Source of the DNA: Ianthella basta
Lineage: Eukaryota; Porifera; Demospongiae; Verongiida; Ianthellidae
Reading direction: 5' to 3'
DNA: 64,000 bases
NCBI GenBank assembly: GCA_964019415.1
Contig: OZ025871.1
Location: 8,852,213-8,916,212, forward strand
Positions 15,718-59,148 of the stretch are shown piece after piece. The position numbers were made by a program, and so were the translations under genes. Every line of letters begins with the position of its first letter. Position 1 is the first letter of the stretch. Below the pieces are notes generated by a model, which saw only the letters and a list, made by a program, of their open reading frames with translations, did no database searches and had not been told where the DNA came from.

Positions 15718-16640
15718 CTAGGACACAGGACCTTGGCGCTCTACTATGGTACCAGGCTTCCAAACTGACTTGCCTCGACCCTCTCGTACCATAACTCTGG
15801 CACCGACTGCAAACTGACTGAAACGTGTAACTGTATCATGGTGTTGCTTCTGACGCGCTTGTTCTCTGCATAGTTTCTCACCAACCACAGGACACAACAA
15901 GTCAAAACGTGTACGAAGAGGTCTTCCCAAAAACAATGAGGCAGGTGACTTCCCTGTGGTTGTGTGGGGAGTGCTCCTATGCGACATGAGAAAATTATGC
16001 AACTGATGCTGAAACGACAAACCATTTCCCTCTCCTGCCTTCATGGCCTGCTTAAAGGTCTGAACGAATCTTTCAATTGTGCCATTCGAGGCAGGATAGT
16101 ACGGAGCAGTACGAATGTGTGGAATTCCGTTGGCATTCACAAAGTTAGCGAATTCACGTGCGGTGAACTGTGGACCATTATTGGATACTAATTGATCCGG
16201 CAAGCCAAAAGATGCAAAAATGCATCTACGGACAACAATAGTATCATCTACCGTAGTAGACTTCATTTCAACAATCTCTGGCCACTTAGAATGTGCATCA
16301 ATAACTAAAAATAAAAATAAAATAAAACATCTTGTCCTGAAATGGTCCTGCAAAGTCCACATGTATGCGTTTCCACGGTTCAGCCGGCTACAACCAAGGG
16401 TGCAGCGGAGCTTCACCCTTGGTTGGTGCACTTTTCACCGCTTTACAAGACACACATGACTTGGCAAGGGACTCTATGTCAGCGTCCATACCCGACCACC
16501 ACATATAGCTACGAGCTACGGCTTTCATTCTGACTACACCGCCATGGTCTCGATGCTAATCTTGCAAAATGCTGGGCCTCAACTTTGCAGGCACTACCAC
16601 ACGAACTCCCCAAAGCAAACAATCTCCTACTACAGGCAAC
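15718..16640 (-). pseudogene. Gypsy element 1: integrase region of pol
   Basis: The core is recognisable: V-I-D-A-H-S-K-W-P-E (first catalytic Asp), L-V-S-N-N-G-P-Q-F-T, and Y-P-A-S-N-G-T-I-E-R (catalytic Glu). The second Asp of the D,D-35-E triad, normally S-D-N-G-P-Q-F, is Asn here, so the enzyme would be dead even without other damage. The upstream zinc-binding part is in another frame around 16,430-16,640. The C-terminal part (R-V-M-V-R-E-G-R-G) reaches to about 15,718. Confidence 0.85.
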
Positions 16641-16698
16641 TCCTCCCTTCAGGAGTAAAAAGAATTCAACTCCGGAGGAACTTGGCTAGGCCAATTAC

Positions 16699-17330
16699 AA
16701 TGAGTAAAATCAAGAGTAGATAAGAGATGAGAGTATGTAACCACATATCCCTGCATGTATAACAGCATTTTTCTAAAATGACGTAGCAACACGTCCCACG
16801 TGGGCATGGTAACACTACTTAATATTCTGATGTAATGGATGAATACCATTAACTTGATCCTCCAGTCTGTACGTATTCGGCATCGATTGCGCAGCTCTCG
16901 GTTTGTTAGTCGGGAGTTTCAACGATGTCCAGGACCAGCTGGTTGACGCCGGTCTCTTCACTGGATAGATCGAGCCTAGAACTTAATGCGTAGCCACTGT
17001 GAAACTCGGAGGACAGCGCTGCAGAGCTGTGGATGGCAGCGCTGTGGCCCAAATCTACGCTTGCTGTCCTGGTCCTTCCTTGCGGGCGCTGCAGAGGTGT
17101 CCTGGACATTGTTGCAACTCCCGACTAACAAACCGAAGGGCTCGCAATCGTTGCCGAGTACATACAGACTGGTTGATCGAGTTAATAGTATTCATCCATT
17201 ACATCAGAATATTAAGTAGCGTTACCATGCCCACGTGTGACGTGTTGCTGCGTCATTTTAGAAAAATGCTGTTACGGGTGCGTATATGCAGTTGCACACT
17301 CTCATCTCTTATCTACTCTTGGTAAAATGC
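16699..17330. mobile_element. Foldback element nested in Gypsy element 1
   Basis: The arms at about 16,700-16,870 and 17,157-17,325 are reverse complements (ATTACATCAGAATATTAAGTA region). A second inner pair (16,900-16,935 with 17,092-17,125, CGGTTTGTTAGTCGGGAGTT) makes the whole ~630 bp a single large foldback. It interrupts pol exactly between the RNase H tail and the conserved W-P-S-Q-V-P-P-E-L segment. ATTAC occurs at both junctions and may be the target duplication. Confidence 0.75.
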
Positions 17331-17331
17331 A

Positions 17332-18720
17332 TTACCCAACTAACTTGCACGCCGTGCCTTGAATAACTGCCCACTTTCGCGGCAGTAATGGGTAAAGCTT
17401 GAATTTGGCCCAGGTTGTAACAAGCAGCAACCCTGGATGCTTCTGCCCCCAGGGAAGAGTTGAGAGGTAAGCGCGATAATCTATCTGCATTTGCATGTTC
17501 CTTTGTGCTGCGGAACTCGATCTTGTAATGGTAAGCAGATAACTTAATGGCCTATCACTGTAAGCGAGCCGCGGCCAAAGTGGGGATGGCATGATAGGGG
17601 CCAAGAATGGTGGTTAGCGGCTTGTGATCTGTTATCAAGGTAAACTGGTGTCCATACAGATACTGGTGGAAATGTTTCACCCTGAAAACCACCGCTAATG
17701 CTTCTTTCTCCACTTGAGCATACTTCTGTTCTGTAGGAGTCGGTGTCCAGGAAGCATAGGCAATTGGACATCCTCCACCATCTGCATACCTTTGGAAAAT
17801 GACTGCCCCAACACCATAAGCAGAAGCATCCGCCGCGAGACTCAAGGGCAAAGTCGGGTCATAATGCGTAAGAACTTGATCTGAACTCAGCATTCCTTTG
17901 ATAGTCTGAAAGGCTTCATTGCACTTCTTGGATCACACCCACGCAGCTCCTTTTTTCAGCAGACGATTTAGTGGGTATAACATCGTAGAGACCTTGGGGA
18001 GAAAACGGCCATAGTAGTTGACTAAGCCAAGAAAGGATCGCAATTCTGAGACATTGGTTGGGGGTCTGGCTTCCGCAATGGCTTGTTGTTTGGTTGTGTA
18101 TGCCATTGGCATCGATGATGTAGCCCAGTACTCCACCGAAGACTGTACGAAGTGACATTTGTCCTTCTTGAGGCGGAAACCCTCTTGCAGCCGCTCTAGC
18201 ATGTTGGACACATTGTTGAGATGCTCTTCCTTGCTCTTTCCCGTGATGATTATGTCATCCAGGTAGCATCTTACTCTTGTCAACCCATTCAGTAGCTAAT
18301 CCATCGTTCTCTGAAAATAGCCGGGGCAGAGGTGGTTGTAAAGGTACAACCCGAGATGTGTGTTCACCGTGACTAACTCTGCAGACTCTTCATCCAGCAG
18401 CAGTTGTTGGTAGGCTTGGGACAAATTAAGGGTGGTGAACAATTCCCCCTGCCAAACTCTCAAAAATGTCCTCCGGCTTGGGAATGGGATGCTGGTCGAT
18501 CTCTAGGGCAGGATTCAAGGTAACCTTGACATCTCCACAAATTCTGAAAGAGCCATCTCGTTTCGGCACTGGCACTACTGGAGTGGCCCAATGACTGAAC
18601 TCAACCTTCATCAAGATTTCGGCTGACTCCAAGCGTTCAACCTCCTGTGCTCTCTCCGGTCTTTAAGGCCCTTATGGATGTACGGGAACAAACTTGGGCT
18701 GGCTATTCTCCTCAGATTCA
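17332..18720 (-). pseudogene. Gypsy element 1: reverse transcriptase and RNase H
   Basis: Reading leftwards: RT start (P-V-V-P-V-P-K-R-D-G-S-F), then a frame break. The catalytic box Y-L-D-D-I-I-I-T-G is near 18,265, followed by F-L-G-L-V-N-Y-Y-G-R. RNase H follows with L-A-A-D-A-S-A-Y-G-V-G-A-V and T-D-H-K-P-L. At least two frame changes (about 18,290 and 17,900) and one stop separate the blocks. The order is canonical for Ty3/Gypsy. Confidence 0.85.
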
Positions 18721-19989
18721 AATGGACAGTAGGCATTCAAGCAGTTTCAAGCTCTTCTCGAAACAACTCCTTATATTGTTGCAGCACTTCATCCAATCTC
18801 TTATGACCACAGTGTGGAACGCAATGGACTGCCAGGAAAGACAAATCTTGGACAGCCACTCTCGCCCAAAGAGCGCGGGGCCATTTCCTCGCACAATGAT
18901 TAATGCCAAGTTATGCTCCTGGCCCTCATATGCCATTCGCACTTGCAACACCCTTGCGACGTCCACTTTCTCCGAGGTGTAGGTGCGCAATACCACTTGC
19001 GCTGGTTGAAGCTGAGCTTGCGGAAATAGCTTCTGTTGTTGCTGGCGTGACATGACTGATACTGCTGCACCCATATTGACTTCCATTGTCACTGGTACAT
19101 CATTCACGGTGACATCCACAGTAATTGGAGCGGCTTGACCATTCCCTAGCTGTAGCAAGGGCACTTCGGCCTCTATGTTTTCACTTGCTGAAATCAGTTG
19201 ATGCGCCTTTGCATCCACCTTGGCGGACCCTTGCCTACCAGTGGAGGATTTTGAGGAGCGACACACTCGGGCTAGGTGTCCCTTCTTGTGGCACTTGCGG
19301 CACACAAAACTGACAAAACGACAATGTGAAGCCACGTGGTCTTGGCTGCCACACCGGTAACATTCCTGGCCTTGCTGAACTAATGTTTGTGCTTGATGGC
19401 CTTTCTGCGACTTGCTTGATGATGTTGAACGTGACCCGCCTTTAGACAGCTGGTGGATCCCAGACTCAGAACCTCGTAGTGCACATGCATTCACATCCAC
19501 TGTCTCCATGCTCTGAGAGATCTGGAGTGCCTTGTCTAGTGTCAGTTCCCTTTCTGACAGCAGACGCTTCTGGTATGCTTCATCACGTAGCCCACAAACC
19601 AGCCGATCACGCATCTAAAGACTCAGCAAACTCCCATGGCACTGCCAACTTCCTCAATTCAGCCAAATACGTAGCCACAGACTCTCCAGGCTGCTGTTGC
19701 CGTTGATGAAAATGGAATCTCGCCGCCATCATCGGTCGTAATACTCTCTCAAAATGTCCATGAGTTTTATTAGGGGCTTTAAGGACTGCTGTGTGGGTTT
19801 CTGTGGCGATAAGATACTCCGTAGCAGTGTGTAGTTCACTGTCCAATGACGTTCAGGAATACCGCAACCCGCTTGTCTGCCTTGATCTCATTTGCCTCAA
19901 AATACAGTTCCACTCGCTCCAAGTATACTACTATTGATTCGACATCTGGGTCGAATAGGCTCCAGGCGCCCAGCAATCGCGCCCGCCAT
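18721..19989 (-). pseudogene. Gypsy element 1: Gag and protease
   Basis: Gag begins near the ATG at 19,989. It contains a capsid-like region (R-F-H-F-H-Q-R; A-E-L-R-K-L; D-R-L-V-C-G-L) and two CCHC zinc knuckles (C-Y-R-C-G-S-Q-D-H and C-R-K-C-H-K-K-G-H). It is broken into two frames at about 19,610. The protease follows, but its active-site triplet, normally D-T-G-A, reads N-M-G-A (M-E-V-N-M-G-A-A-V-S), removing the catalytic Asp. Confidence 0.85.
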
Positions 19990-21300: not shown

Positions 21301-22025
21301 GAATACTAAGATCTGAAGATCATATACATGTATCTGAAAACCATACAGTTGTCCTAGTATACATCACAACCAACCAGTATTCATATGTGTGAGAGTCACC
21401 AGTAGAAATTGAAGATTAGTAAAAAAAAATCATTATAATCCAAAAATGGCTGGCAAAATTCAGCAACTTTGAAGGGACAGAAAGTGCCACTGAACAATAT
21501 TTTTGGATCCTTTAAGTAAATTCATTTGGATACGGCATGCCTTCTGCATTATAAAAACTACAGTTTGGAGCTTTTGACTGCCAAAGTCGTCATTGGTTTC
21601 ATGTTTTTGAAGACCTCTTGCACAATGCTGACTGGAACATTCAGCCAGTGTAACTCGAGCATTACTCTGCTGACAGCTTCCTTCTTACTTGAGTAGATGA
21701 TTCCCACAGTTATAGCTCTATTAAACATTAATACGGTGCTAAATGAGACCAAATTCGTCAGAGTTAAAGCGGATCAGCCATTTTCAATTGCCATTTTGTA
21801 TCCTGAGTATATAAATAAAACGGTGAGTCGGCTACATTCAACTGACAATTTCTCGGCAACAGAAGCTCAGGTGCACCTCAAACTTGCTAAAGATGTGTGG
21901 CTAGCTACATCCTGGAGAATTGCCAAATCACCAAAATTTGCTTCGATTTCTACTGTCAACTCTCACATGTAATAAAATTTCTTATACAAGCAGAAACACT
22001 AAGATATGTTGACACTACACCTCAC
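21301..22025. other. Intron sequence
   Basis: AT-rich intron of NLR gene 1 with no gene or repeat recognised. It leads into the donor of the NACHT exon. Confidence 0.5.
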
Positions 22026-23702
22026 CATTTGTTTGATGCAATGTCTGCAATGTTCCACCAGCATATACTTGCCACAGCAAGCGATAGATTTCTGCATAAC
22101 CTGCACCTTTTTCAATGGTGAGACGTTTCAATGAAGGTAGTACAGAAAGACAATAGCCGTAGGCTGTGGAGTCATAAGCTGTCTCTGGCCTCACGTTCAC
22201 CTCTTCTCCTACAATACTTGGCATCAGGCGGCGAACTAATGAAATGTCTTGTGTCTCAAACAGGCACTGCATTTGAAAGTCTGTGAGATATGAGTTTATT
22301 TCGTTTTGAAGGCGGTGAAAGTGCTGTAATTTAGTCAATCCACAATAAAAGCGCCACACCTGTGCCATGTGGGGCTCACCAAGATACCTGGCCCAAATCT
22401 CGCACTGCCTCTCTGGTGTCAGGAGTGACACATAAACAGCAGCAAGGAATTCCTGTAAAGTCAAGTGGATGAAGAAGAAGCTATCAATGGCCCCCTTCCT
22501 GGACTTGGGGTCACATCGAATGGGCCTACCTGTTAAAACACCACACCCCCTCTTACGATCTGAGAAGCGCTCACTGAGACCCTGGAGATCGCCTGAATCA
22601 AAGACTATTTTTTGCTTTTGAATGCAGTTATAAGCAATTTCCCCAAGTTTATAGATATCATGGTCTTTTGAAAGATCCATGATGGAATTCAGTTCAGGCA
22701 GTTCTTCTCTGTACTTTAGTACTTTCACACAGAGGTAGTCATTGTAGATTTGTGTCAATGTCGGTGGAAGGTTCTCTCTAAACAGAAACACTTGACAAAT
22801 GATGGACAGAACAACAGGGATTGAACATATGCCTTTAATCTGTGGAAAAGCATCCATCTCCCTGACAAATGGGTCAAGCAGGTCTGGTCGCCCTTGATCA
22901 GTGAAATATTGAATTGCATAAATCTTGATCTGGTCCTGAGTGAAACCAAGCACTTCAATATTAGTTAGACTAACTTGACTACGAGACTTTTGCTCGCTAC
23001 GAGATTTCTGCATTTGGTAGTAGATCTCGCTTGTTACAATGGAGCGAGATGTTAGAATAACATCACAGTGTCGTAGAAGGGATTCACGGCTGTGTGACAG
23101 AAGGTTCACAAGGAAGTCAGACTGTCGAAGGTGAGAAGGCAGCTCATCATATCCATCCAGGATGAAGAGCACACCTCTCCCCAGGTCGCTATATAATGTT
23201 TCAGACAATCTCTCAAGTGACACATCATGTGGCATCATTCCTTGGAACAGCTGCAGAATGTCCATCAATTTGAAGTCTTCCCTAAAGTCTAGCAAGTCTC
23301 TCAATTCGACTAAGATAACCAAAATGTAATCGTGGCAACTGGGAAGTTTACAGATGTCTTGGCAAGTTTTCCGAGCCAATGTACTTTTACCTACGCCAGG
23401 AGCACCACTAATGATTACAAGTTTGTGCTCTTTCACTAATCCTGGGATTGCCTCACACTCTACTTTACCAGTCTGGTAGGTGTACACATTATCAGCACCT
23501 TCCCTCACAGCTTTGACAAACTTCTCCTGGGCACGCTGGGCACTTAAGTGGAAACGAGCAAGGGCTAAGTTAACGAATGGTAAAGCCTGATCGGCAGGGA
23601 GCCACTCATCATCGACTACCTTCATGTTCATATAGAATTCCACAAGGCAACTGGAAAAGGCATCTACCTGCTCTCTTTCTCCTCCTCCCCGTTCCTCCTC
23701 AA
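22026..23702 (-). CDS. NLR gene 1: NACHT exon (STAND NTPase)
   Basis: A single 1677 bp exon, about 559 codons. Walker A G-A-P-G-V-G-K-S-T lies roughly 90 residues in. Walker B is F-I-L-D-G-Y-D-E-L and sensor 1 is V-I-L-T-S-R-S. The winged-helix/HD2 signature F-F-F-I-H-L-T-L-Q-E-F-L-A-A is near residue 410. Members of this family bind ATP and oligomerise as cytosolic immune or stress signalling hubs. The exon is entered in phase 1 (acceptor CTCTGCAG) and left in phase 1 (donor GTGAGG, just before an in-frame TAG). Those phases match the CARD exon upstream and the linker exon downstream. No frameshift. Its paralogue is at 59,149-60,810. Confidence 0.92.
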
Positions 23703-24907: not shown

Positions 24908-25216
24908 CTCTCTTGAACTGCTTCGCCACCCTCTTCAGCTCATCTGCCCAGACCACTTGGTTGCTGTCGCACAGCATCTTGCAAAAGGTCCTAAAATCTC
25001 CATCTCCTTTCCCACGCAGACTCTCAATGATGCTGTCCACCTGAGCAATGTTGTTGGGTAACTGTCTTACCATCTTTGCCTCATATTCGCTCATAAATCC
25101 ACCCGCTGCTCTCTCTAGTTTATCACTCAGGCCTGTGTTCACTAAAACTTTGAGCTTTAGCTTTTCTCTCAAGAAAAGCAATGCGTCATTGTTCCATGAA
25201 CTCAGTGGAAGACCAC
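24908..25216 (-). CDS. NLR gene 1: CARD-like exon (proximal to NACHT)
   Basis: 309 bp exon, 103 codons, entered and left in phase 1. It encodes a helical death-fold domain: L-L-F-L-R-E-K-L-K, D-K-L-E-R-A-A-G-G-F-M-S, V-R-Q-L-P, F-R-T-F-C-K-M-L, W-A-D-E-L. CARDs recruit adaptor or caspase CARDs by homotypic contact. Close relatives are the exons at 28,597-28,911 and 61,541-61,858. With the preceding 2A exon (25,437-25,593) the frame runs directly from the N-P-G-P motif into this domain, so a 2A product would start a few residues before helix 1. Confidence 0.85.
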
Positions 25217-25436: not shown

Positions 25437-25593
25437 CCTGGATAGGTCCAGGGTTAACCTCCACATCTCCTGCCCGGAGCAGCAGGCCACACAGAAGGAC
25501 AGAAGGCATAACAGACACTGCTTGAGCCAACAACTCCTTGACAAGGTGTGCAAGGCATCTTAGCAGTGCAAGGCAGAAGATGGGGGGTCTGAA
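25437..25593 (-). CDS. NLR gene 1: second 2A-like exon (C')
   Basis: 157 bp exon, phase 0 to phase 1. It encodes a Leu-rich stretch (M-P-S-V-L-L-C-G-L-L-L) followed at once by A-G-D-V-E-V-N-P-G-P (25,444-25,470). D-x-E-x-N-P-G-P is the invariant core of 2A 'stop-carry on' peptides, at which ribosomes skip the Gly-Pro bond. In sea urchin and sponge NLRs such motifs were reported as combined signal/2A sequences. An internal Met 11 residues before the motif could start such a signal. The exon aligns over its full length with 32,374-32,530. Confidence 0.8.
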
Positions 25594-25713
25594 CTGTGCA
25601 TCCATGGGAGAGTAAGGGAAATACCATTAGAGACACTGACACATGGTAGAGATAAATTTGTTACCCATGACACTGTGGCAGCTGCAGGGTGTGCAGAGCA
25701 GTGTGTGGCTTAC

Positions 25714-25867
25714 CCTAATGCGCATCATACAGGACCTCTGGATGGTGAACGACATCACTAAACAACCATGTATCCTCCTTGCACACTTGAACCCCTTCTT
25801 CAGCTTCAATGAAGGAAACTTCACTAGCAGACTGCAAAGCTTCTTGGACACTGTTCGGCGCTCATAG
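25714..25867 (-). CDS. NLR gene 1: exon B' (basic domain), duplicate cassette
   Basis: 154 bp exon with acceptor TTTTGCAG and donor GTAAGC, phase 2 to 0. Basic and hydrophobic (Y-E-R-R; L-L-V-K-F-P-S-L-K-L-K; C-A-R-R-I-H-G; S-F-T-I-Q-R-S-C). Near-identical to 32,658-32,811, with many differences silent, which argues that the frame is translated. No known domain recognised. Confidence 0.7.
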
Positions 25868-26001
25868 CTGCAAAATGAACAGCATCAGGCAACAAGTTAG
25901 CATTTTCTTATTCATCATAATACCTTTAAACCTGCCTTACAATGCACAGAATCAAGTACAAAATGTTGAGGGAGACATATGACACTTATATCTGGACCTA
26001 C

Positions 26002-26098
26002 CTCTTCACAGCTGCCACACAGATAGTGAATGGACTGGGTATAAAGATGAACTCAAATACACTATTCTTTCGGCATGGAGAAGAGACATCCCTTTTAC
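26002..26098 (-). CDS. NLR gene 1: exon A', duplicate cassette
   Basis: 97 bp exon, phase 1 to 2, reading D-V-S-S-P-C-R-K ... F-I-F-I-P-S-P-F-T-I-C-V. Same length and phases as 32,944-33,040. Homology to the right-hand cassette stops near 26,230, inside the transmembrane exon of that copy. This cassette therefore lacks its own signal peptide and receptor-like exons and must be reached by splicing from upstream or by an internal start. Confidence 0.65.
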
Positions 26099-26399
26099 CT
26101 ACATGCATGTGACATTGAAGAAAGGTTTCAACAAACTGTACTACACTTCAAACAATGACAGGGAATAGATTATCCATAACATCCACCATGCATACCTGGC
26201 AATGAAGCTGCCTTCAGACCTCTCCTTCCTCTAGCTAGTAACGAGACTAAATGCAAACTGCATGTCCACATGAACAATGATATAATGGCTATGAAAATGC
26301 AGGCATTCAGCTGGACAATGTGGTTCCTTTTTATTCGACTTCATGACATAGCTTGGGCAGTTATCCAGCTTAGAACAGGTTTACGCATGTGGGACATGT

Positions 26400-27870
26400 C
26401 CCATGTAAACAATACGGAATATCCGCAGCCAATTATTTTACCCTTGCAAATTGTCTTATGTTGTCTCAACATAGCAGAAATATCTTTCTGGCTGTCAGAT
26501 AAACATCTGAAAGGAAAACGTGAACATAAATCTGTTCACAAACACACGCTCTAACTTTTGTATGCATGCTGCTAAACCAATCCAATCCAAAGTTACAACA
26601 GGAGAACTAACTTATGTCTTTCTCCTGCAACGTTCGAGCCCTGTAACTCGCAGGAATCAAACAACGAACAATGCATGACTGAAAAATCTAGATCATTTCC
26701 TTAGCATGTGCAACGAGCTATTGAAGCCCCTCTACACTGAAAGTTAGGACGTTCTTCTGCTAATTACTCATTGCTAAACCTACCTCAGGAAGCAAGTCTC
26801 ATGACGTCCTCGTGCCTTTCCCAAAAATGGCTGACTGCATTATGGTACATCATGCTATCTCTTTTTTGCGATTTGGTCAAAACTGTGCACTACATGTCTA
26901 GCTACCAGATACAACATGATCTGAGATCCTCTCAGATCACACACACATCACATGACTTTGTGCACTGCAGCAGAGGAATTCACACCTTTGGTGACAATTT
27001 AGTTATGTAAACAAGTATGGATATGCCCCAATGTTGCATGGCTATGTAATGCACTGTCGATTTTGGCCTAAGTATTTTGAATCATATCTCCTACCAGCTT
27101 TGCTGGATCTGAGCGGGACAAGCACCTAACAGAAGACAAGGGACCGCTCTGTAACACTGTGAATAAGCGTCGTTACTAATTCTGTGGTACAGCGAGTTGT
27201 ACCGGCAATCACAAACCCACTGAAAGAGTAGTAAATGTCAATGTCGTAGTCAAGGAAAAGTCGCAGCAAATAAAGAAAGAAGGATATCATTGGATGCGCA
27301 TTCATATTATCTAACTTTTGCGAGAGGGATAAGTTGCTAAAGTGATCCGCTGACAACTTACAGCAAGAAGACTACCACAGCTTGGTGGTCATGAAAATGT
27401 TGGGTCGCATAACTATAGATAGGAAAAATGCAAAGCATTATCCCTCTCGCAAAAGCTAGATAATTTACTTGACTAACCGTTTCAGTCTTGATTTCAGCAA
27501 GAAACCGTCTCAACGACTATGACACAACGTTTTCCTGAAAGGACAAGTCAAAGGCCTAGTAGCACGTGATAACACGTGATATTCTTGTGACATTTCCGAA
27601 AGTTGCTGACAATGTTATGTTACTTCTTGCCATTCGACTGTTCCACGCGAACGATTCCATCAAAGCTCTATGTTTTGGCTTACCCCCATCTTCAAGCACG
27701 TACGCAGCAGCCATAACCTATGTTTTAAGGCAATTTCTTCCAGGACTTCCTGTCAAATCACGCGGATAACACGTGACAATGCTCATGTAGCCATGGCAAC
27801 ACAAGAATTCACACCTTTGAGGTGTCATATTTACTTGTGTAAACAAATCAGACATGTCCCACATGCGGTA
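26400..27870. other. Intron sequence, probable insertion
   Basis: ACATGTCCC(A)CATG motifs at about 26,385 and 27,855, each next to GTAAACAA, are inverted. A hairpin lies inside (27,305-27,331 with 27,437-27,466, TTTTGCGAGAGGGATAA). This suggests a ~1.4 kb non-autonomous element, termini not resolved. No coding region recognised. Confidence 0.35.
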
Positions 27871-28269
27871 TCTGAAAAGGTGAGGTTGAATAATGTACAG
27901 TGCATGATCTTGTATATAGTAGTCGTATTGGCAAATATTAAGAGGTTTAAACAACTGTACATTATTTGGTATATAGATCCTGTTGCCTTGGTAACGGGCA
28001 CCTGAATGATGATTCTAAATCTCTGAGAAGCATACCAATTGCTTCACACGTGATTCTAAATCCCCTAATAGTACGTTGGGGGCAGAGCGAGGATGTTTAT
28101 AAATCCAATATAAACATCTGTGGGCACTCTGCGGAGCATTTATCATTGTAATATGATGTCATTTAAGCATACATGATCAAGAAGCGACAGGAGTGCAAAA
28201 TGAATGGGTGAGCGAATGGATTAGGGTCTATATATCACTTAAATGGTTACCAATCGGTGTCTCTGCGTG

Positions 28270-28366
28270 ATTTACCTATTATGTACAGTGCCTGGGAGAA
28301 TAGCCTATGGCTAAAGGCTCCCCAGTCCAAATAATGATTCCCTGATCCCTGATCCTTAATAATCTG
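28270..28366. repeat. Possible LINE 3' tail
   Basis: GGCTCCCCAGTCCAAATAAT followed by a short ATTCCCTGATCCCTGATCC repeat resembles the 3' end of the LINE at 36,900-36,967 (GGGCTCCCTGG ... tandem ACTGAT tail). Only the tail remains. Confidence 0.35.
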
Positions 28367-28596
28367 CTCAAATACACTATATTGACAAATGAAGTGATAT
28401 TATCATATTTTACTTTAACGATCAATTACTGTGATATTAAGCAGCAAAAATTAGCAGTCGATGTCACATTCAGCCTAACTAGCATAAATGTGTTGCCCAG
28501 ACATTGTACACATTGTACACGGAAATTAAACATTAAGGTATGCATTGAATAACATGGTACATATTGTCCACCTCCTACGAGAGATATTTCCTTTAC

Positions 28597-28911
28597 CTCT
28601 CTTGAACTGCTCTGTCATCTTCTCCAGCTCATCTGCCCAGACCACTTGGTTGCTGTCACGCAGTATCTTGCAGAAGGTCTTAAAGTCTTCATCTCCTTTC
28701 CCACGCAGAGTCTCAATGACCCTGTCCACCTGGGCAGTGCTGCTGGGTAATTCTCTTACTGTCTTTGCCTCAGATTCGCTCATAAATCCACCAGCTGCTA
28801 TTTGTAGTTTATCAATAAAGCCTGTGGTTATTAAAACATGACATTTTAGCTTTTCTCTCAAGAAGAGCAATGCATCATTGTTCCATGAAGTCAGTGGAAA
28901 TGTGCCACCAC
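28597..28911 (-). CDS. NLR gene 1: CARD-like exon (distal)
   Basis: 315 bp, 105 codons, phase 1 to phase 1 (acceptor ATCTCAG, donor GTAAAG). Same death-fold as 24,908-25,216 (F-L-R-E-K-L-K-C; A-A-G-G-F-M-S-E; V-R-E-L-P-S-S; F-K-T-F-C-K-I-L; W-A-D-E-L). It can be spliced in frame to exon A' at 26,098, to the CARD exon at 25,216 or directly to the NACHT exon, since all accept phase 1. Confidence 0.82.
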
Positions 28912-29457
28912 CTGAGATGGTATACAGACAAAGGGAAAGAGGACAGACTCGCTAACTGGTAGTCTAGCTATAATTATGGTTTTCTACAACATACACTGGA
29001 AAGTGCCTGCATAGTGATACTAACAAGTCCATGCATATGCATGCACCACATTATGTATACACACGCACCTGAAAGACAACGTTCGGAACTACACATGGTA
29101 AGGAAAGAGGGGAGAAGGGAAAAATGGCTGGCTCCAGCCCACATCGGTATATAAAGAGGGAATGGATCAGTGGCTGTTGGCAGTGACGAGTGACCCAGCT
29201 GCTAAAGGGTCGGCTAAAGATCTGGATGTTGCCAGTGCTGGTCCAGTTCACTGCCATTTTTGCCTTTGCCCCCTCTTTCCTGACAATGTGTAGCTCTGAA
29301 CGTTGTCTTTCATTCGTGTCACCATGGTACATAGATCATCTTAATACAAACACCTCATATCACAATTGTTTACACATCAAAATTCCAATTTGTTGTTCTA
29401 CTTAACACAACACTAATTATGACAACCTCCCAAGCATTCACTTCCTTTGAAACGAAC

Positions 29458-29739
29458 CTCCTTGTGACAGCTCGTTCATGATCTTCTCTGCCAGTCTCTG
29501 CATGTTTGGATAACCGTCTGCTGCAATGGCCACCTTGCAGAACTTCCTCAGTGTCTCCTCACTGCTGTGCTGCTTCAAGTGGTCATATAATATCTCTTTA
29601 CCCTCATCATCATTAGTAGTTGAAATACGTCTCTCAATGTCCTGTGTGATCACTCCTTTACGCTTCAGTTTGAGCAGGTTGTACTTGGGCACCACTACTT
29701 CAAAAAAATTCTCTTCATATTTCTCAAGAACCTCAGACA
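29458..29739 (-). CDS. NLR gene 1: death-fold (CARD/DEATH-like) exon
   Basis: 282 bp, 94 codons, phase 1 to 1. Helical pattern: Y-N-L-L-K-L-K-R-K-G-V-I-T, D-I-E-R-R-I-S, I-L-Y-D-H-L-K-Q-H, L-R-K-F-C-K-V-A, N-M-Q-R-L-A-E-K-I-M. This reads as a CARD/DEATH-type fold, but a different subtype from the W-N-N-D-A-L-L family. The acceptor TTCTTAG is good. The donor (GGAG|GTTCGT) is weak, but the same GTTCGT donor also fits the signal-peptide exon of this gene. Otherwise the frame would end 6 codons later at a stop. Confidence 0.7.
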
Positions 29740-29819
29740 CTAAGAATGGGATGTACACACATTGCAAAGGAAGAGTTCAATGACCACACTAGGTAAAGGT
29801 ATACATGGAACAACATACA

Positions 29820-30075
29820 CCCAGAATAAGTGCAGTTCTCTATACAGGACATACTGAATAAGGACACCTCTCTATAAGGGCACCCTGAAGAAAGGCATGT
29901 CTCTATAGTGGACACTTGGAATAAGGGCACCTCTTCATAAAGAAACCCAGAATATGGGCACCTCTTTATAAAGGGCACTTCTGCTATGTTCCAATTTCAT
30001 GGACCCAGCTAAAAAAACTGCTTCAAAATTAGGTACACCTCTCTACAAGGGCAGTCAGCTAAGTCCCAGTAGTGT
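29820..30075. repeat. Degenerate tandem repeat, unit ~28-30 bp
   Basis: About eight imperfect copies of (G)GACACCTCT(C/T)TATAAGGGCAC...GAATAAG. Intronic. Confidence 0.65.
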
Positions 30076-30329
30076 CCAGTATGGAAAGGGCCCACTGCAT
30101 GTGACTGGACGAAGGGAGACTAAGCCAATTGTACCAAGTTCGCAGGTCATAATCTATGAATGATTTGCTGTCAGTGTTCGCTAATACAACCATGGACAGA
30201 AATAGAAGGTGCCTTGTTTGTCAGATTCCATTCTTACATCATATTACATATGCACACGAACACACACACACACACACACACACACATCTATACATACTAG
30301 ACAAATGTAGGGCATTATGGGCCGAGCCT

Positions 30330-31740
30330 GAGCAGTGCATGTGCTATTTCTATGGCAATCAGCAGCAAGCGACTGTGCAAAGCACAACACAGCAAAGCAA
30401 AGCTTGAATGTTTGGTAAGCATCGGTGCTGCCAGCCATTTTAAGAAAACATGCCTGGCTTGCATAGGAATCGGGCAAGTCGATGTGTTGCAGGAGATGGA
30501 CAGTTAATGACTGACAGCTGCAATGGTGATGGTTATGAAGACTCAGCAGGATGCCTTCAGCATCGACCAGGGTTGGCAGGGGAACTTTACTGAAGCTGGA
30601 GGGAGAGAAATCGTCGGCATACTCCATGTCTCTTCAGATAACACTGAGCTAGAGTATGAGCGGTAAGCAGCCAACATTCGTTTGCGTAGTCCACCTTGCG
30701 CAGCTTTCTGCAGCGAATATGCACCACTTCCACATAGCCTAATGATGTGCACGATAGCGTAACTACAATGATTCTGGCATGCTAAATGGCCAGTATAAAT
30801 TGAATTCAGAAATAGAACTATACAGTGTAGACACCTTGCAGTCTCCCAGTGTGTCCACAAAATATTACACCGAAACTTTACCCTGTGGCCCAAACGGACG
30901 GCCCGCTATTTATATACACCGTACTGGCACCTCCAGCTACACTACGCACTAAGTGGGGCGAGCCTGAGCAGTGCATATGTAATTTACATGGCTGAAATGA
31001 GCAACACGCAACTGCAATCAAGAACAGCAGCACACAATGTCTAGTTAGCATGGTGAATTCATGTGCAAGGACAGCACTGCAAAATAAAGCTTGAATGTTC
31101 GGTAAGCATAGGTGCTGTGCAGCCATTTTAAAAAGAAATTGTGCCTGGCTTGCATGGGAATTGGGCAAATGGATGTGTTGCAGGAGATGGAGAGTTACTG
31201 ACTAACAGCTGCAGTATTAATGCTTAATATTATGAAGACTCAGCAGGATATGGATGCCTTAGGCATCGACCTGGAGTGGCAGGGGAACTTTATTGAAGCT
31301 GGAGGGAGAGAAATCGTTGGCATACTCCATGTCTCTTCAAATAACATCGAGCTAGAGTACGGGCGGTAAGCAGCAAACGATTGTTCACGTAGTGTACCTT
31401 GTGCAGCTTTCCACAGCTAATATGCTGAAGTACGGGTGGAATGTAATGATGTCACATCCGGCGAAACCTGTAGTATGCAGGGACTAATGATATGCATGAT
31501 AGTGCAACTACAATGCTTGTGGCATGCAAAATGGCTGGTATAAATGTGATTTGGAAATAGAACTATATGGTGTACACACCTTGCAATCCCTGGCCCTGTG
31601 CCCAAATAGTGTTGCAGTCCCCCAGTGTGTCCAAAAAATATTACAACAAAACCGTACCCCGTGGCCCAAACTGACTGCTGGCAATTTATACACATCTTAT
31701 TGGCACTTCCAGCTACACTAAGCACTAAGTGGGGCTCGCT
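30330..31740. repeat. Tandem direct duplication, two ~650-780 bp units
   Basis: Unit 1 (about 30,330-30,960) and unit 2 (about 30,961-31,740) share GCCTGAGCAGTGCAT at the start, ATGAAGACTCAGCAGGAT and GAAGCTGGAGGGAGAGAAAT in the middle, and CAGCTACACTA.GCACTAAGTGGGG at the end. No coding potential recognised. A (CA)n tract at 30,258-30,284 precedes it. Confidence 0.75.
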
Positions 31741-32373
31741 CAGGCTCGCCCCAGTAAAGAGGAGCTGAGCAGAATGGTTGTTTGCGAAACAGCGCATCGA
31801 CACCAAACATTTCCAAATTATGGACGCCACACCCGGTCTCGATCTAAGGGGGGAGACATGTGTGAAGAAGCACCTACCGAGAAGCGTGTGGCGAAAAACT
31901 TCTAAACGACCGTCCACCATCTTGGATTTACAGAGAAAGTACATGGTTTTCCACGGACACTCCTATGCTGCCAATACAAAGGAAGAACCTCAACAGTTGT
32001 TCGTGAACTCCTCCCGCGAGAGTCGAAGAAAGGTGCCCAAACGTTCCCAGCCATCGCACGCTGTACCTTACCTCAATCTACGTGTGCAAATAAGCTGCTG
32101 CCGAGGAGCGTGTGGCAAAAACTAGAACCAACAGCCATCTTGGATCTGTGAAAAACGTACAGGACCCCTCTACAGGACGCACTAGTCCCCCATACAGAAA
32201 GCACTCGACCACTTTACTGTATACACTGGACCCTCCTACAGGGCTTGCCGAAGGCGGGGGCCTTGCAGCTAGTTATATATACACACCTCATACTACAATA
32301 GTACAATTGTTTACATATCACATTGACTGATACCATAACCATAACCACTGAACTAAAGGTGCCTTCTCCTTAC
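31741..32373. other. Intron sequence
   Basis: Repeated degenerate ACGGTCCACCATCTTGGAT-type phrases near 31,910 and 32,130, but no clear element ends. No gene. Confidence 0.35.
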
Positions 32374-32530
32374 CTTGGATAGGTCCAGGGTTGACCTCCA
32401 CATCTCCTGCCTGGAGCAGCAGGCCACACAGAAGGACAGAAGGCATAGCAGAAACTGATTGAGCCAACACTTCCTTGACAAGGTGTGTAGTGCACCTTAG
32501 CAGTGCAAGGCAGAAGCTGGGGGGTCTAAC
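32374..32530 (-). CDS. NLR gene 1: first 2A-like exon (C)
   Basis: 157 bp, phase 0 to 1, acceptor CATGCACAG, donor GTAAGG. It encodes R-P-P-S-F-C-L-A-L-L, then M-P-S-V-L-L-C-G-L-L-L-Q-A-G-D-V-E-V-N-P-G-P (motif at 32,381-32,407). The 2A core is complete and is preceded by a hydrophobic stretch, as in reported dual signal/2A sequences. The upstream exons keep the frame open, so translation could also run through from the signal-peptide exon at 34,374. In that case 2A skipping would release a membrane module from the CARD-bearing module. Confidence 0.82.
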
Positions 32531-32657: not shown

Positions 32658-32811
32658 CCTAATGAGCATCACACAGGACCTCTGGATGGTGAACGACACC
32701 ACTAAATGGCCATGTATCCTCCTTGCACACTTGAAACCCCTCTTCAGCTTCAGTGAAGGAAACTTCACCAGCAGGCTGCGAAGCTGCTTGGACACTGCTC
32801 GGCGCTCATAC
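32658..32811 (-). CDS. NLR gene 1: exon B (basic domain)
   Basis: 154 bp, phase 2 to 0, acceptor TTTTGCAG, donor GTAAGT. Rich in Arg/Lys and aliphatic residues (L-R-S-L-L-V-K-F-P-S-L-K-L-K-R; C-A-R-R-I-H-G-H-L-V-V). By position it would be cytosolic juxtamembrane sequence if the preceding exon forms a membrane span. No known domain recognised. Confidence 0.7.
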
Positions 32812-32943: not shown

Positions 32944-33040
32944 CTCTTCACAACTGCCACACAGATAGTGAATGGACTGGGTACAAAGATGAACTTGAAT
33001 ACACGTTTCTTTCGGCATGGAGAAGAGACATCTCTCCCAC
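32944..33040 (-). CDS. NLR gene 1: exon A
   Basis: 97 bp, phase 1 to 2. Reads G-R-D-V-S-S-P-C-R-K-K-R, then hydrophobic F-K-F-I-F-V-P-S-P-F-T-I-C-V-A-V-V-K-R. Its acceptor (CATGCATGTAG) contains a TAG that would stop the upstream frame if unspliced. Same length and phases as exon A' at 26,002-26,098. Confidence 0.65.
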
Positions 33041-33159: not shown

Positions 33160-33367
33160 CTCTCCTTCTTCTAGCTGAGGGAGCGAGCATTTCTTCATGG
33201 AGTAAAGATGATAGGCATAGGAATACAACAAGGACAGCCAACGCCGTTTGCCGAAGGAAGGTGTTGATCAGAATAGCCATCCTCCGGATCATGGCATTGA
33301 AGGCTGTGCAGCGCTTCATTGATAGGAGGAGATGGGCTGGACTCACATGTACAGGAGTCATGGTCAC
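33160..33367 (-). CDS. NLR gene 1: transmembrane-like exon
   Basis: 208 bp, phase 0 to 1 (acceptor CTGTACAG, weak donor GAGAG|GTCAGA). It contains about 16 hydrophobic residues (A-L-A-V-L-V-V-F-L-C-L-S-S-L-L) followed by a basic cluster R-R-R-R, the arrangement of a single-pass segment with a cytosolic stop-transfer. A second donor further on (ATG|GTGGAT) would also keep the phase. No family recognised. Confidence 0.55.
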
Positions 33368-33572: not shown

Positions 33573-33739
33573 TTCATCATGGAGGGGGCAGTTCAGAAAG
33601 TTGCCTATTCCTGGTACACCTGTCATCCATTCTTCAAAGAGACAGTGGAGGCAGTCATCATTCAGTTCAGTGTAAGGGCAGGCATCATCCATCAGGTAAC
33701 TACCCAGGTGAGGGTTGGGCGGCTTGGACCAGATGGTGT
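33573..33739 (-). CDS. NLR gene 1: cysteine-rich ectodomain-like exon
   Basis: 167 bp, entered in phase 1 (acceptor ACTCATGCAG), left in phase 0 (donor GTAAGG). About 55 residues, acidic, with four Cys (D-A-C-P-Y-T-E-L-N-D-D-C-L-H-C and N-F-L-N-C-P-L). Lying between a signal-peptide exon and a transmembrane-like exon, it is best read as extracellular. No known domain recognised. Confidence 0.6.
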
Positions 33740-34271: not shown

Positions 34272-34374
34272 CTGATGCTGGTATCTTTACTCCTGATGAT
34301 GGAGGAGTGATGAGTTGTGTTGAGACACACACAGCCGACAGCAGGATTAGATACAGGAAGAACACATGCACCAT
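34272..34374 (-). CDS. NLR gene 1: first coding exon, signal peptide
   Basis: The ATG at 34,374 opens M-V-H-V-F-F-L-Y-L-I-L-L-S-A-V-C-V-S-T-Q, a classical signal peptide with likely cleavage after A/C-V-S, then a Ser/Pro-rich stretch. The end chosen is TCAG|GTTCGT (phase 1), which joins the phase-1 ectodomain exon. A stronger-looking GTAAGT 28 bp further gives the wrong phase. Upstream Met codons in frame exist but add no typical leader. This is taken as the 5' end of NLR gene 1. Confidence 0.6.
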
Positions 34375-36005
34375 TGTTCGCAAAAGGTGAGCAACATGTC
34401 CTGCCGCATTTCTCAGTCCTGCAATGCTATGGATGCTTCGTGGATAGGTTGGGTGTTGAAGACACACTTGATCTTTATACCGATTGTGGGAGTGCCTCAT
34501 GTTCTACCATGGGACAGAAAGAGGGAACTGGTTGAGCAGTGCTTGCATGTTTGTACAACTAGAGGATAAATGGTCAGTAGGAATGATCCCCCAGTAAAGT
34601 ATGCAGTACAGAAGCGAGACGAGCAGCACTCTCAGATGAGGGATGACATGCACTGAGTGACAAACTTGTTTTGCACCAGAATCGTGGCCAACCTCCTGTG
34701 AGATTACCGTGCAAGCTCTAATTTCGCGGTACATCATATATTCTTATCGAATTTCGCAAGGCAGTCGGCACTCTTGAAAATGTAATGCTGTACACTTCCA
34801 GTACATAAATACATTGCATATAATATTACGTTACCAATATAAACAACCAGGTGACCATTCGCGTCCCGCGAAAATTGGAGCTTGCAGGCCTGAGGGTAAC
34901 CTATCCACGCCTCAAAGCCTTTATCAAAAAATGATGGAACAGTACTTTCTAACTTCCGAATTGCCCACTCCACTTGAACACGTGATGGACGGAATCCAGC
35001 CAAAGATCTTACTTTAACCTGATCAGTCTTGCATTCACGAATGAGGACTTTGTCGTTTACTACACTACAAACCGTTTAAACCTCCCTACACGCACGACAG
35101 TTTTGCCAGCTGTGTGAATCATCTCGTACTTCCGTCATCGCACTTGAACGAGTCTCCTAGAGAGTCCCTGTACCGCCACATCCTTCTGCAGCGGCAGTAC
35201 AGCCATCCCATCATTCGCTGTCGGTGATCCAGCCTCAAGTCGGGTCTTCAGTCGCGATGCTTTTCGTAGGGGGTGCTTAGTTAGGTCTTGCACATGACAA
35301 TCGAGGAAAAATCATTGTTCATTTTCGTCGCCAGGGAATGAAGTAGTCGCCTAACCCACAGTGCAGCTAGCAATTTTCAAGGTAATAAAAGCACGAATGG
35401 AACTTGCCGTGTAGCTGGCCGGGTACTCTGAGAGTTGACTAAAGAGGTAACGTAGTTTCAGGCATTATAGTTTAATACAACAGTACGTTCTTTCAGACAC
35501 GGCAGACGACCAACGAACTCACTTAGCTCGCGTATACTGACCCACTAGTGAACTCTGTCGGAGTATAGACGCACACAATAAGGATCAAGGATCAAGGGGC
35601 GGGACGAGGGGGGAGGGGCGCGCGGGTGTGACCATATATGTAGACTCACCCCATGCATTGAAAATGGCGCGCGGCTGTGTGGAACCCCACGTACCTGGCT
35701 AGCTGAACGTCTCGATTATGCCTAGGGCGCTTAGACAGTCTAGCTAGCAGGTTAGCGCTAGGAACCACGTGTACAGATGGAGAGTGCATGCATGCAGACC
35801 TAGCTTAGGTGTGCTATATATCAATCGATCAATCAGCATTAGAGTGCACTGCACCAAACAGTGCTAGGGCACAAAAGGTAGACTATAACACAAGTATAGG
35901 TACTAGGGATAGTTCAATAAAAGTGCTCTTGTAACATTTAATAGGATTAACTCACCTCGTGCAAGCACATAGGTACACTGAACGGATTTGTTGGGAAGAA
36001 ATCAA
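34375..36005. other. Putative 5' flank of NLR gene 1
   Basis: The 34.4-35.6 kb stretch has more CpG than its surroundings (for example around 35,095-35,220 and 35,590-35,690) and no open frame with a domain. This fits a promoter/5' region, but no core promoter motif is convincing. 35,690-36,005 is featureless. Confidence 0.35.
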
Positions 36006-36970
36006 AGTTGTATAATATAATATTATGCATGGTTTGTATATGTATGCACATGTGCACGTGTATGTGTGTGCATTCTCTACAATGGTCAGCCACTACAACA
36101 GGTATCATCTTTTAAGCTCCTAGGAGTTGTCATTGACGAGCATCTGAGATGGAATTCCCACATCAACTTTATACATGGCAAAGTATCACAAAATCTTGCC
36201 CTATTGCGCCGTCTTTCTTGGTTTTTACCAAATCAATCACTCCTTACCTTCTATTATGCTTACATCATGCCCCATTTTAACTATTGTCAATTAGTTTGGG
36301 CAGCCTGCAGCAACCAATCAGACCTACAACGGCTGCAGCGGCTACAGAACTGTGCAGCAAGAATCATCTTGAGGAGAAGTAGACTATCCTCAGCTACGGG
36401 TGCATTGTCAAACCTTGGCTGGAAACGCCTGCAAGACTACCATCGTCTCAACCGGATCAAGTTAGTAAAATCAATATTATTCCAGCCTACGTCATCTGCT
36501 CCTTGTCTATCTTCGTTATTAACATCACTCTCTCATAGCCACAATACCAGAGGGAAATCATGCAACCGTCTAATCCTACCCAAGATTAAATCAGAATTTG
36601 GTAAGAGATCACCTAGTTTCCAGTTAGCATATGCATGGAACTCATCATTGTAACGTCTAGATTCACCATTCATTTTTCTTCTGCATGTATAATTATTATG
36701 CATATGTAAACTTTCACAAGTACCCATAATTCTTTTCTGTAACGTTTGCATATCACATCATTACAGTTTAATTTAATATGTAACTTTTAGTAGTCATGCA
36801 TTATACTTATATTATTACCTATTTCCTGTACCATATTTCATCATTTCATCACTCATCTTTTCTTACCCCCTATCTGTATTTACAATGTTAACTGGGCTCC
36901 CTGGAAAGTAGTCCTGTGGACTAAGTGGAGTGCCAGGATAATAATTACTTATACTGATACTGATACTGCA
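36006..36970 (+). mobile_element. 5'-truncated non-LTR retrotransposon (CR1/Jockey/L2-like)
   Basis: Comprises the C-terminal ORF (36,066-36,653), a ~250 bp 3' UTR and a tail of tandem ACTGAT units at about 36,948-36,967. The 3' end ends in a microsatellite rather than poly(A), as in CR1/L2-type LINEs. Everything upstream of the end of RT is missing, the usual result of incomplete target-primed reverse transcription. Confidence 0.75.
36066..36653 (+). pseudogene. LINE ORF2, post-RT C-terminal fragment
   Basis: 195 codons open, starting inside the protein. S-S-F-K-L-L-G-V-V-I-D-E-H-L-R-W is the standard junction after the RT fingers/palm. H-F-N-Y-C-Q-L-V-W and L-Q-R-L-Q-N-C-A-A-R-I-I, common to Jockey/CR1/RTE-type proteins, follow. 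It ends at a natural stop after W-N-S-S-L. The F/Y-x-D-D catalytic region and endonuclease are absent. Confidence 0.8.
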
Positions 36971-53833: not shown

Positions 53834-54174
53834 TGTAGTGTAGTGTTAACCTATGTTTGTTACTCCATCTTTGTTAAGCCATGGTTGTTAGACATGTATG
53901 AAACATCTTTATCTTATTCATTGTACTATGTCATACTGCATCATCATGGGTCTTAGTCCTGTTTCTGATTGGTCCCCTGTGATTGCCTTGGCAACAAATC
54001 ATTTAGTATTTAAGCTCATGTTTTGCACGCTATTGTCAGTTGTTGCAGCTGTTGTAGATGTGAGCTGGTTGGCTGCCCTATTTGCATGTGTTCATTGAGT
54101 TGTTGAGCTGAGTGCTTTTTCAGTTGTTGTTCGTTGTTGATATCGAAACGCTACCACGCTTACAAGATATCACA
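53834..54174 (+). repeat. 5' LTR of Gypsy element 2
   Basis: TGTAGTGTAG ... GATATCACA, 341 bp. Followed by TTGGCGACGAAGGTGGGA, the presumed primer-binding region. The shared part is almost identical to 57,002-57,243, so insertion is recent relative to element 1. Confidence 0.92.
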
Positions 54175-54217
54175 TTGGCGACGAAGGTGGGATCCAAGAT
54201 TCCACGGATATCCGGAA

Positions 54218-56336
54218 ATGGCAGCGCAACCCATGTTCGGAACACTATCGGAGTATCAGGCCGAGGCCGAATCGTTCTTCACGTATGTAGAGAGAGTCAA
54301 AATCTTCTTCGCGGCAAATGACATCCCCGAAGACAAGCAGCTGCCTGTGTTTCTCAGCGTCATCGGGGCAAAGAACTTCGCGCGGCTTTGTGATTTGATG
54401 GCGCCTGAAAAGCCCAAATCGAAGACTCTCGCTCAAGTCACCGAGGTGCTGGAGAAGCATTATGAGCCCAAGCCACTGGTGACGGCTGAGCGTTTTCATT
54501 TTCATCCACGGAATCAACAGTCAACGGAGACTGTTGCGGAGTATGTTGCCGAGCTCCGACGCCTACCAACGCACTGCGATTTTGGCGATCACCTCAATGA
54601 CGCTCTTCGCGACCGTCTGGTGTGTGGCCTACGCAGTGAAAGTATGCAAAGGCGCTTACTGTCCATGAAGGACCTGACCTTGAAAGATGCGTTGGAAACA
54701 GCTCAGGCAATGGAAGCAGCTGATAAGAGTGCAAAGACCCTGCATGGCTCTGAGCCAACTGCCGTGAATCAGATCAAATCCCAGTCACGGGGTGGAAATT
54801 TTCGCAAGCAACCTGCTAGTCAGGGACCTCTGTCAAGTCAGAAATCACCCTCATCTCAGCCCTGTTATTGTTGTGGAAAGACCAACCACACACCCTCCAA
54901 TTGTCGCTTCCTTGATTCTAACTGCCATTACTGTGGCAAGAAGGGCCACATCAGCTCAGTGTGCCGATCAAAGAAACAGGGTCTACCTCGCAATTCATCA
55001 CGTTCAGTGCCCCGAAGAACTCACTACCTGGATGCCGAAGCTCCCTCCAGCCCACCAGAAGAGGAGTTGCACTTGTTTCCCATTGCAGCACCTACCACCA
55101 AGTCAACCCCCATCAAGTGCTCAGTGGTTGCTGATGATGTAACTCTCGATATGGAAGTTGACACGGGGGCTGAAGTTTCAGTCATATCAGAGCAAATCTA
55201 CAAGCAAATTTTCCCGCACTCGACCCTCAGCAAAACTAGGGTGGTGTTGAAAACCTACACAGATGAGACTATCCCTGTTGTAGGTGAGCTTCATGTTCAA
55301 GTGTGCTATGGTACACAAACAGCTCATCTGAGGTTGGTTGTTGTTGGTGGAAGTGGCCCAACACTCCTAGGACGCGATTGGCTGAAGTCCTTGAAACTGG
55401 ACTGGCACCAGATCTGCCTGGTATCTCGGGGGAAGACAACGGAGCTTAAACCCTTGCTGGAGCGATTCAAGGATGTGTTCAAAGATCAGTTAGGAACTGC
55501 CAGCATCCATGAGGCAAAGCTGCACATCCGCTCTGACGCAGTGCCAAAGTTTTTCAAGCCACGTTCAGTGCCATTCAGCACTAAAGATGTCATTGGAGCT
55601 GAGCTTGATCGACTGGAAGCCGAAGGCATCCTGGAGAAAGTGTCCCACAGCGAGTGGGCCGCACCTATTGTTGCAGTGCCTAAGAAAGACGGAACATTCC
55701 ACATTTGTGGTGATTACAAAGTCACCGTTAATCAAGATCTGGATGTGGACCAGTACCCATTGCCTAAACCGGAAGAGCTTTTCGCTTCTCTGGCTGGGGG
55801 TCAGCACTTCAGCAAGCTGGATCTGTCCCAGGCCTACCAACAACTCGTGTTGGACAAGGAATCGAGAAAGTACACAACCATCAATACCCACAAGGGGCTT
55901 TATCAGTACACTCGTTTGCCTTTTGGCATTGCATCGGCCCCAGCTCTGTTCCAGAAGACAATGGACTTGATTCTGCAAGGTTTGCCACATGTGATCTGCT
56001 ATTTAGACGACATCCTGGTGATGGGTGCAGATGATGCTGAGCACATGCGCAACTTGGAAGAGGTCCTGAGTCGCCTGAAGCACCATGGTCTGAGATTGAA
56101 GCGGTCCAAATGTGAGTTTCTGCAGTCATCTGTTGACTACTTGGGGTACCACGTGGATGCGCAGGGGCTGCACACTGCCTGCAAAGGTAGAGGCCATCAC
56201 CCAAGCTCCCAAACCACAGAATGTAACTCAGCTCCGATCCTTTTTGGGCCTGCTGAATTACTATGGTAAATTTGTCCCAAATTTAGCCACTATCGTTCAT
56301 CCCCTCAACACGCTGCTCCGTCAAGATGTCAAGTGA
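54218..56336 (+). pseudogene. Gypsy element 2: Gag-protease-RT polyprotein
   Basis: Start taken at the first Met after the LTR (M-A-A-Q-P-M-F-G). Capsid-like region, then CCHC knuckles (C-Y-C-C-G-K-T-N-H; C-H-Y-C-G-K-K-G-H). The protease keeps its active site (E-V-D-T-G-A-E-V-S). RT has V-P-K-K-D-G-T-F, L-D-L-S-Q-A-Y and C-Y-L-D-D-I-L-V. A frameshift near 56,185 and a TGA at 56,334-56,336 break the frame before RNase H. Unlike element 1, catalytic residues up to that point are intact. Confidence 0.9.
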
Positions 56337-58939: not shown

Positions 58940-59148
58940 ATTGCCCCCAAGTGGCCCCTTTCGCAAATCCTATCACATATACACAAGGTAGCAGTTATAC
59001 ACAAGTATGTCTGCAGTTATGCACAAGGCGTATATACGAGATGGAAATTAGAACTCATGTAACACATCAGTGAGGTAGAACTTTGTAAACATATCTGTTA
59101 TGATATGCTAATTTAAAACAATTCCAATCTGATGAAACTACTCCTCAC

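Follow-up and report, generated by a model that had tools for sequence, protein, structure and literature searches.

Two in-frame StopGo/2A sites in a probable fusion gene of CARD-NACHT type in the sponge Ianthella basta

Introduction

How does a single immune-receptor gene come to hold two 2A-like (StopGo) sites in one reading frame, and what would such a gene produce? This question is raised by a locus on the minus strand of a 64-kb window of the sponge Ianthella basta (C4:8852213-8916212, the whole stretch of DNA analysed; C4 denotes contig OZ025871.1 of the 209-Mb assembly GCA_964019415.1), in which a first-pass annotation had noticed the octapeptide DVEVNPGP at the ends of two exons of an NLR gene. 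Its interpretation as a tandem 2A is partly supported by the analysis described here. We estimate a probability of roughly 60% that the locus is one chimeric fusion gene, the two StopGo sites of which would divide the product into three chains: one a membrane module, one with the CARD-like and CARD parts, and one with CARD and NACHT. Positions without a contig prefix are those of the window.

Results

Two 2A sites lie within one open chain of exons

In a six-frame scan of the window, E-x-NPGP gave exactly two matches, both on the minus strand, inside exon C (32374..32530) and exon C' (25437..25593), and the pattern (D/G/C/N)(V/I)ExNPGP likewise gave two matches, versus none in 200 mononucleotide shuffles. 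The core at both sites is the in-frame StopGo/2A core, DVEVNPGP. The scan and the junction check thereby bore out both exon positions in the first-pass annotation. Each exon is 157 bp long and ends in its 2A site, which reads LLLQAG-DVEVNPGP in C (site 1) and LLLRAG-DVEVNPGP in C' (site 2). The paired exons claimed upstream of them were also recovered from splice sites and phase: exons A and A' (97 bp; 32944..33040 and 26002..26098) and exons B and B' (154 bp; 32658..32811 and 25714..25867; exon B has homologues genome-wide) are, like C and C', equal in length and phase in the two cassettes and are flanked by AG acceptors and GT donors. A 12-base match at 62959, with no B, C, or 2A match nearby, was rejected as a third cassette.

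Downstream of exon C, the chain continues through a CARD-like, possibly death-fold, exon (29458..29739), the CARD1 exon (28597..28911), A', B', C', the CARD2 exon (24908..25216), and the NACHT exon (22015..23702; the open reading frame (ORF) stops at 22015, and a possible donor follows 22026). The claim that these exons keep a single frame, and thus that two in-frame 2A sites lie within one open chain, holds for the joined exons and their phases. The chain extends beyond the part noted at first: its start lies further 5', at an ATG at 34498-34500, and exons U1 (34272..34500, with a predicted donor and the first hydrophobic segment), U2 (33573..33739), and U3 (33160..33367, with the second hydrophobic segment) precede exon A. 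The U1 start is marked by an in-frame stop just upstream and by an aligned Met in 17 of 18 copies; the Met of the paralogous locus L013 lies in a different context. The 3' end of U3 is uncertain, either 33160 (donor GTCAGA) or 33127 (donor GTGGAT), in equal phase.

When joined, the 13 exons gave 1345 codons from the ATG through the NACHT exon, with no stop or frameshift, with matching phases, and with GT-AG at every internal junction. The alternative U3 donor gives a chain of 1334 codons. The 2A cores begin at residues 339 and 674 in the 1345-codon model, or at residues 328 and 663 in the 1334-codon model.

For the NACHT exon, the Pfam match was clear (PF05729, E 8.8e-17, 61.9 bits versus a cutoff of 26.7). 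For the CARD exons, 8 of 10 aligned copies matched Pfam CARD at E<=1 (best 1.4e-5), with CARD1 and CARD2 of the window scoring 20.3 and 14.8 bits, both under the Pfam CARD cutoff of 23.9. The CARD exon profile found the Apaf-1 CARDs as its best matches in the PDB (E 0.025 to about 0.03), followed by the NOD1 CARD and unrelated proteins. The CARD exons are thus likely to provide an N-terminal death fold. For the CARD-like exon, which had been named a death-fold exon, the in-frame exon stands and the domain identity is weak, at best CARD-like: Pfam CARD matched 2 of 12 copies (best E 0.009, equalled by three unrelated families), the sole Pfam match of the window copy was HTH_48 (0.017), and the best PDB matches of the profile were ENY2 (0.17) and, further down, the Bcl10 CARD (0.33-0.44). 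The label NLR was borne out as regards NACHT. Matches to a leucine-rich repeat (LRR) pattern numbered fewer than three in every 1-kb bin of the window; the pattern was a regular expression that diverged or distant LRR exons may escape. Because of this lack of an LRR pattern cluster in the window, NLR is used here in the sense of CARD-NACHT.

Cassette 2 is probably a module truncated at its 5' end by a gene fusion

The DNA between CARD1 and cassette 2 changes its affinity at one point. Stretches within 28544-26242 matched the CARD-to-NACHT intron of three paralogous loci (L011, L012, and L013) and also the DNA 3' of CARD in two others (L009 and L015), the NACHT exons of which lie beyond their fetched DNA. 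From 26236 on, in contrast to this intron DNA (26243..28596), the window matched the central part of U3 in cassette 1, and the switch occurred within a few bases, which places the fusion breakpoint at 26236..26242. A tblastn search at E 0.01 found no match for U1 or U2 in front of cassette 2, which keeps only a remnant of U3; frame and splice sites allow an optional 51-bp in-frame exon that includes this remnant (26196..26246). The first-pass annotation missed this probable origin of the second cassette.

From the breakpoint matches, we infer that a single event removed the NACHT end of gene 1 and the start of gene 2. A deletion or an unequal crossover between two genes of the order module-2A-CARD/NACHT would have produced one chimeric host gene, to which gene 1 would have contributed the promoter side, the start codon, U1-U2-U3-A-B-C with 2A site 1, the CARD-like exon, and CARD1. 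The CARD-NACHT intron of gene 1 would have been fused to gene 2 midway through its U3, with the loss of the NACHT of gene 1, and gene 2 would have contributed A'-B'-C' with 2A site 2, CARD2, and NACHT, leaving cassette 2 without a start of its own. The frame would have survived the fusion because the CARD exon ends and the A exon starts share the same phase, and the fusion origin could explain why both 2A sites stand in one unit.

Identity between the two cassettes is about 90% across exons A, B, and C, and 82.8% across the introns. A recent internal duplication is not favoured as the origin of the tandem, since each window cassette is nearest in the tree to the paralogous locus L010 rather than to the other cassette, with poor support for the branching there. 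Among the 99 genomic 2A matches described below, only two neighbouring pairs were found within 17 kb, the window pair (6.8 kb) and C4:11426191/11436258 (10.0 kb), the next being at least 18 kb apart. The latter pair is degraded, its B matches being partial or stop-containing.

The 2A site closes a recurrent six-exon module

The 2A exon is the last of a six-exon module, U1-U2-U3-A-B-C, with two transmembrane (TM)-like segments. In searches of the genome at E<=10, the 2A-exon query gave 99 matches (E from 2.1e-13 to 1.07) and the B-exon query gave 69, both counts being lower bounds in which weak matches are possibly due to chance. A 2A match followed within 4 kb downstream for 62 of the 69 B-exon matches, and a B exon lay upstream of 61 of the 99 2A matches; 32 of the 38 without it lie on the plus strand of C4. 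Thus, the 2A is not merely an N-terminal tag but closes a conserved module of ~330 residues shared by many paralogues, which had likewise been missed.

At the DNA level, 34 of the 99 2A loci were examined (two in the window, L009-L033, and L034-L040; hand-picked, mostly top-ranking), and DVExNPGP was kept in 33 of them. In the 26 cassettes with a B match (24 of L009-L033 and both window cassettes), the core DVE(V/A)NPGP was found in 25, with synonymous variation at 5 of its 8 codons. A GT donor follows two codons past the core in 25 of the 26 (absent in L022), indicating that the 2A is fixed at the end of its exon. In 19 of the 26, the fetched DNA contained a downstream CARD-like, CARD, or NACHT exon; none of these was found in the other seven, three of which had less than 2.5 kb of downstream sequence.

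The module exons look coding. Median pairwise dN/dS (NG86; pairs with dS <=0.05 or >1.5 dropped, stop-bearing rows excluded) was 0.38 in U2, 0.42 in B, and 0.29 in the 2A segment, the lowest among the module segments. All 20 copies of U2 that were found were open, and the two other frames were open in 0-1 of 18 copies for U1, 0 of 20 for U2, 0 of 22 for U3, and 0 of 26 for B. Coding-frame stops occurred in U1 (L012), U3 (L011 and window cassette 2), and B (L022).

Pfam gave no match up to E 10 for two module queries. A protein search with residues 1-350 of joined L013 found nothing at E<=0.01, which is a weak test, since the database matches found elsewhere were single-exon or intron-containing ORFs; the B-intron-C frame, used as a query, matched 10 database ORFs. 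As neither Pfam nor the protein searches gave it an identity, the module is an orphan.

Three loci deserve separate mention. L014 has NPGS in place of NPGP and a shifted U3 tail, and is possibly a natural non-skipping control; NPGS also occurs in the database ORF P0122, the C exon reading of which is identical to that of L014, so that both probably represent the same locus. L031 and L040 were examined from among the 32 B-less matches on the plus strand of C4, which lie at about 3.96-9.67 Mb. L031 showed a C exon and a CARD together with a weak U3-like match, and the module may persist there in a diverged form. L040 (C4:9624000-9625000, plus strand, 364-606) does not resemble the module, being a short ORF with a 2A core followed by a hydrophobic, Cys-rich, TM-like stretch.

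Predicted products of the fusion gene

If each DVEVNPGP acted on the ribosome as a StopGo site, three chains would result, and this division, suggested by the first-pass annotation, is plausible. Chain 1 would be the module, about 335-345 amino acids (aa), probably held in the membrane through its two hydrophobic segments. Chain 2 would be Pro-CARD-like-CARD1-A'B'C', adaptor-like and either soluble or tail-anchored, and chain 3 would be Pro-CARD2-NACHT, a cytosolic receptor. StopGo failure would yield longer fusions, some of them tethered to the module. The hydropathy of the window chain showed two TM-like stretches, at residues 46-64 and ~164-188, with less pronounced ones in exon A and ahead of both 2A sites. 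After two helices, as read from this hydropathy plot, the C-terminus would be cytosolic.

On inspection against PMC12846837, LLLQAG and LLLRAG before the D fit the L-rich (A/S/C)G StopGo class. Four upstream motifs assayed in that study, one of them L-rich, are given as about 92.7% to almost 100% active in reticulocyte lysate.

Alternative readings of the locus

Several observations weigh against one functional, serially split fusion gene. The exon ends and the gene model were read from the DNA, which makes the single transcript a predicted one, and the assembly is the sole source for the junction at 26236-26242. The U1 exon has further possible donors besides the chosen one, and the U3 donor CCAG/GTATGC of several paralogues reads CCAGATATGC in cassette 1, where other in-frame donors are present. 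Values of dN/dS are just moderately below 1 in U1 (0.83), U3 (0.74), A (0.62), and C before the 2A (0.60), and the frame test is weak in A (other frames open in 4-5 of 20 copies) and in both parts of C (8-23 of 26). Cassette 2 has a longer branch than cassette 1 (0.063 versus 0.038) and a higher dN to L010 (0.080 versus 0.055), both of which are compatible with relaxed constraint. With respect to skipping, the L-rich motifs in PMC12846837 favour S at the variable core residue, which here is V and outside the favoured residues given there, and PMC2978324 describes 2A failure after some upstream chains targeted to the endoplasmic reticulum (ER). Because the L-rich context is active elsewhere, yet the V residue and the ER-target failures count against full activity, three main chains plus some fusions are expected.

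The position of the 2A relative to the start bears on the alternative that survives best, namely two transcription units. In this alternative, a gene 1 remnant ends after CARD1, and gene 2 starts at the Met of C', so that 2A site 2 would serve as an N-terminal 2A/signal sequence, as in the sea urchin Strongylocentrotus purpuratus, some NLRs of which carry 2A-like signal sequences near the N-terminus (SpNLR2A; PMC4981915). C' does hold M-PSVLLCGLLLRAG-DVEVNPGP, 22 residues, which is near the 26-aa N-terminal SpNLR2A sequence (PMC4981915), and the missing U1/U2 and truncated U3 of cassette 2 would suit a start at this point. However, A' and B' are open and in phase with CARD1, and, judging by the breakpoint, the original NACHT end of gene 1 is gone. 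Moreover, a Met 14 residues before the core was present in 16 of the 26 cassettes, including both window copies, and missing in 10, and thus is not the family start. Together with the U1 start, this indicates that the 2A lies after a ~330-residue module in the family; under the inferred gene model, it is not within ~26 residues of the start Met, as it is in SpNLR2A. For the same reason, the use of the Met as an alternative N-terminus, which the first-pass annotation had offered, is weakened as a family rule, although both window copies retain it and may use it. Taken together, these observations make two units unlikely, albeit worth keeping in view.

Decay of the fusion locus into a pseudogene, or a rare allele of it with no functional product, would be in keeping with the altered U3 donor, the faster-evolving cassette 2, and the truncated module, as well as with the absence of a further close pair among the 2A matches except for the degraded one. 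Conversely, 13 joined exons without a stop or frameshift would not be expected of such a locus, and the cassettes are more similar in their exons than in their introns, with the caveat that most of this divergence may predate the fusion. We regard this reading as distinctly unlikely.

A leftover of a non-LTR (long terminal repeat) retrotransposon, exonised into NLR genes with no use for skipping, is very improbable: non-LTR elements are known to carry 2A (PMC4981915), but the 2A segment is the most constrained of the module, and the GT donor almost always follows the core. A retroelement origin of the 2A exon itself is also not favoured, since the exon recurs in a constant exon order, the copies not having been searched for retroelement proteins.

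Discussion

The single 2A/signal sequences at NLR N-termini to which the first-pass annotation had referred are known from the sea urchin (PMC4981915). The sponge fusion gene resembles SpNLR2A in having a 2A-like core after a hydrophobic stretch, NACHT-type receptors, many paralogues, and possible dual targeting. In contrast, the sea urchin 2A, according to PMC4981915, is a 26-aa N-terminal sequence (14 entries) or is situated in the N-terminal region, whereas the sponge 2A, in the predicted gene model, forms the end of a conserved module of six exons containing two hydrophobic segments, and two sites occur in a single gene. One of the sea urchin sequences was used in assays of recoding and targeting (PMC4981915). 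Viral polyproteins divided by StopGo/2A, certain of which have multiple 2A sites, share the core octapeptide, the L-rich class, and several products per frame (PMC12846837, PMC11512398); here, however, the sites lie in a host gene that is spliced and encodes immune-receptor domains. Sponge NLRs, some of them with predicted transmembrane segments, are reported to be expanded NACHT genes with CARD or DEATH, including putative membrane-bound NLRs (PMC12909245), but the term "2A-like" has no occurrence in the main text of that paper. In the open-licence literature, no title or abstract opening among the entries listed dealt with a tandem-2A NLR. Beside the known N-terminal 2A in NLRs, an internal 2A and its tandem arrangement in one gene would seem to be a new variant.

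StopGo use in cellular genes is described as rare (PMC12846837, 2026). If the sites are active, 99 2A-exon matches in one genome, 61 of them behind a B exon, would mean that host genes make natural use of StopGo on a large scale, and a gene model of one long membrane-NLR protein would really describe two proteins. If the 2A is common, some predicted membrane NLRs of sponges might be split products. We tentatively propose, at slightly under even odds, an animal lineage in which dozens of receptor genes use StopGo to make a fixed-ratio pair of a two-TM orphan module and a CARD-NACHT chain, which the fusion here would turn into a trio with a CARD-like/CARD adaptor; a single message would then encode membrane partner, adaptor, and receptor. 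The fusion gene offers a natural test of whether serial StopGo sites can give a separate adaptor and receptor, and illustrates how a single recombination step could add products to such genes or remove them.

Other features

A second 2A-like group shares the context VVIAILLLQSGDVETNPGPVERG in L034-L036, with variants in L037 and L038; its open frames of 108-222 aa are, by eye, unlike A-B-C. Within the window, an additional CARD-NACHT gene lies at 59138-61859, with no 2A exon upstream of it in the window, and a long inverted-repeat structure was seen by eye upstream of this gene, at 62000-64000. Retroelement-like ORFs, recognised by eye only, are located at 15718-19852 (minus strand), 54107-57026 (plus strand), and 36021-36653 (plus strand), and comprise gag, reverse transcriptase, and integrase-like pieces and a reverse-transcriptase-like remnant.

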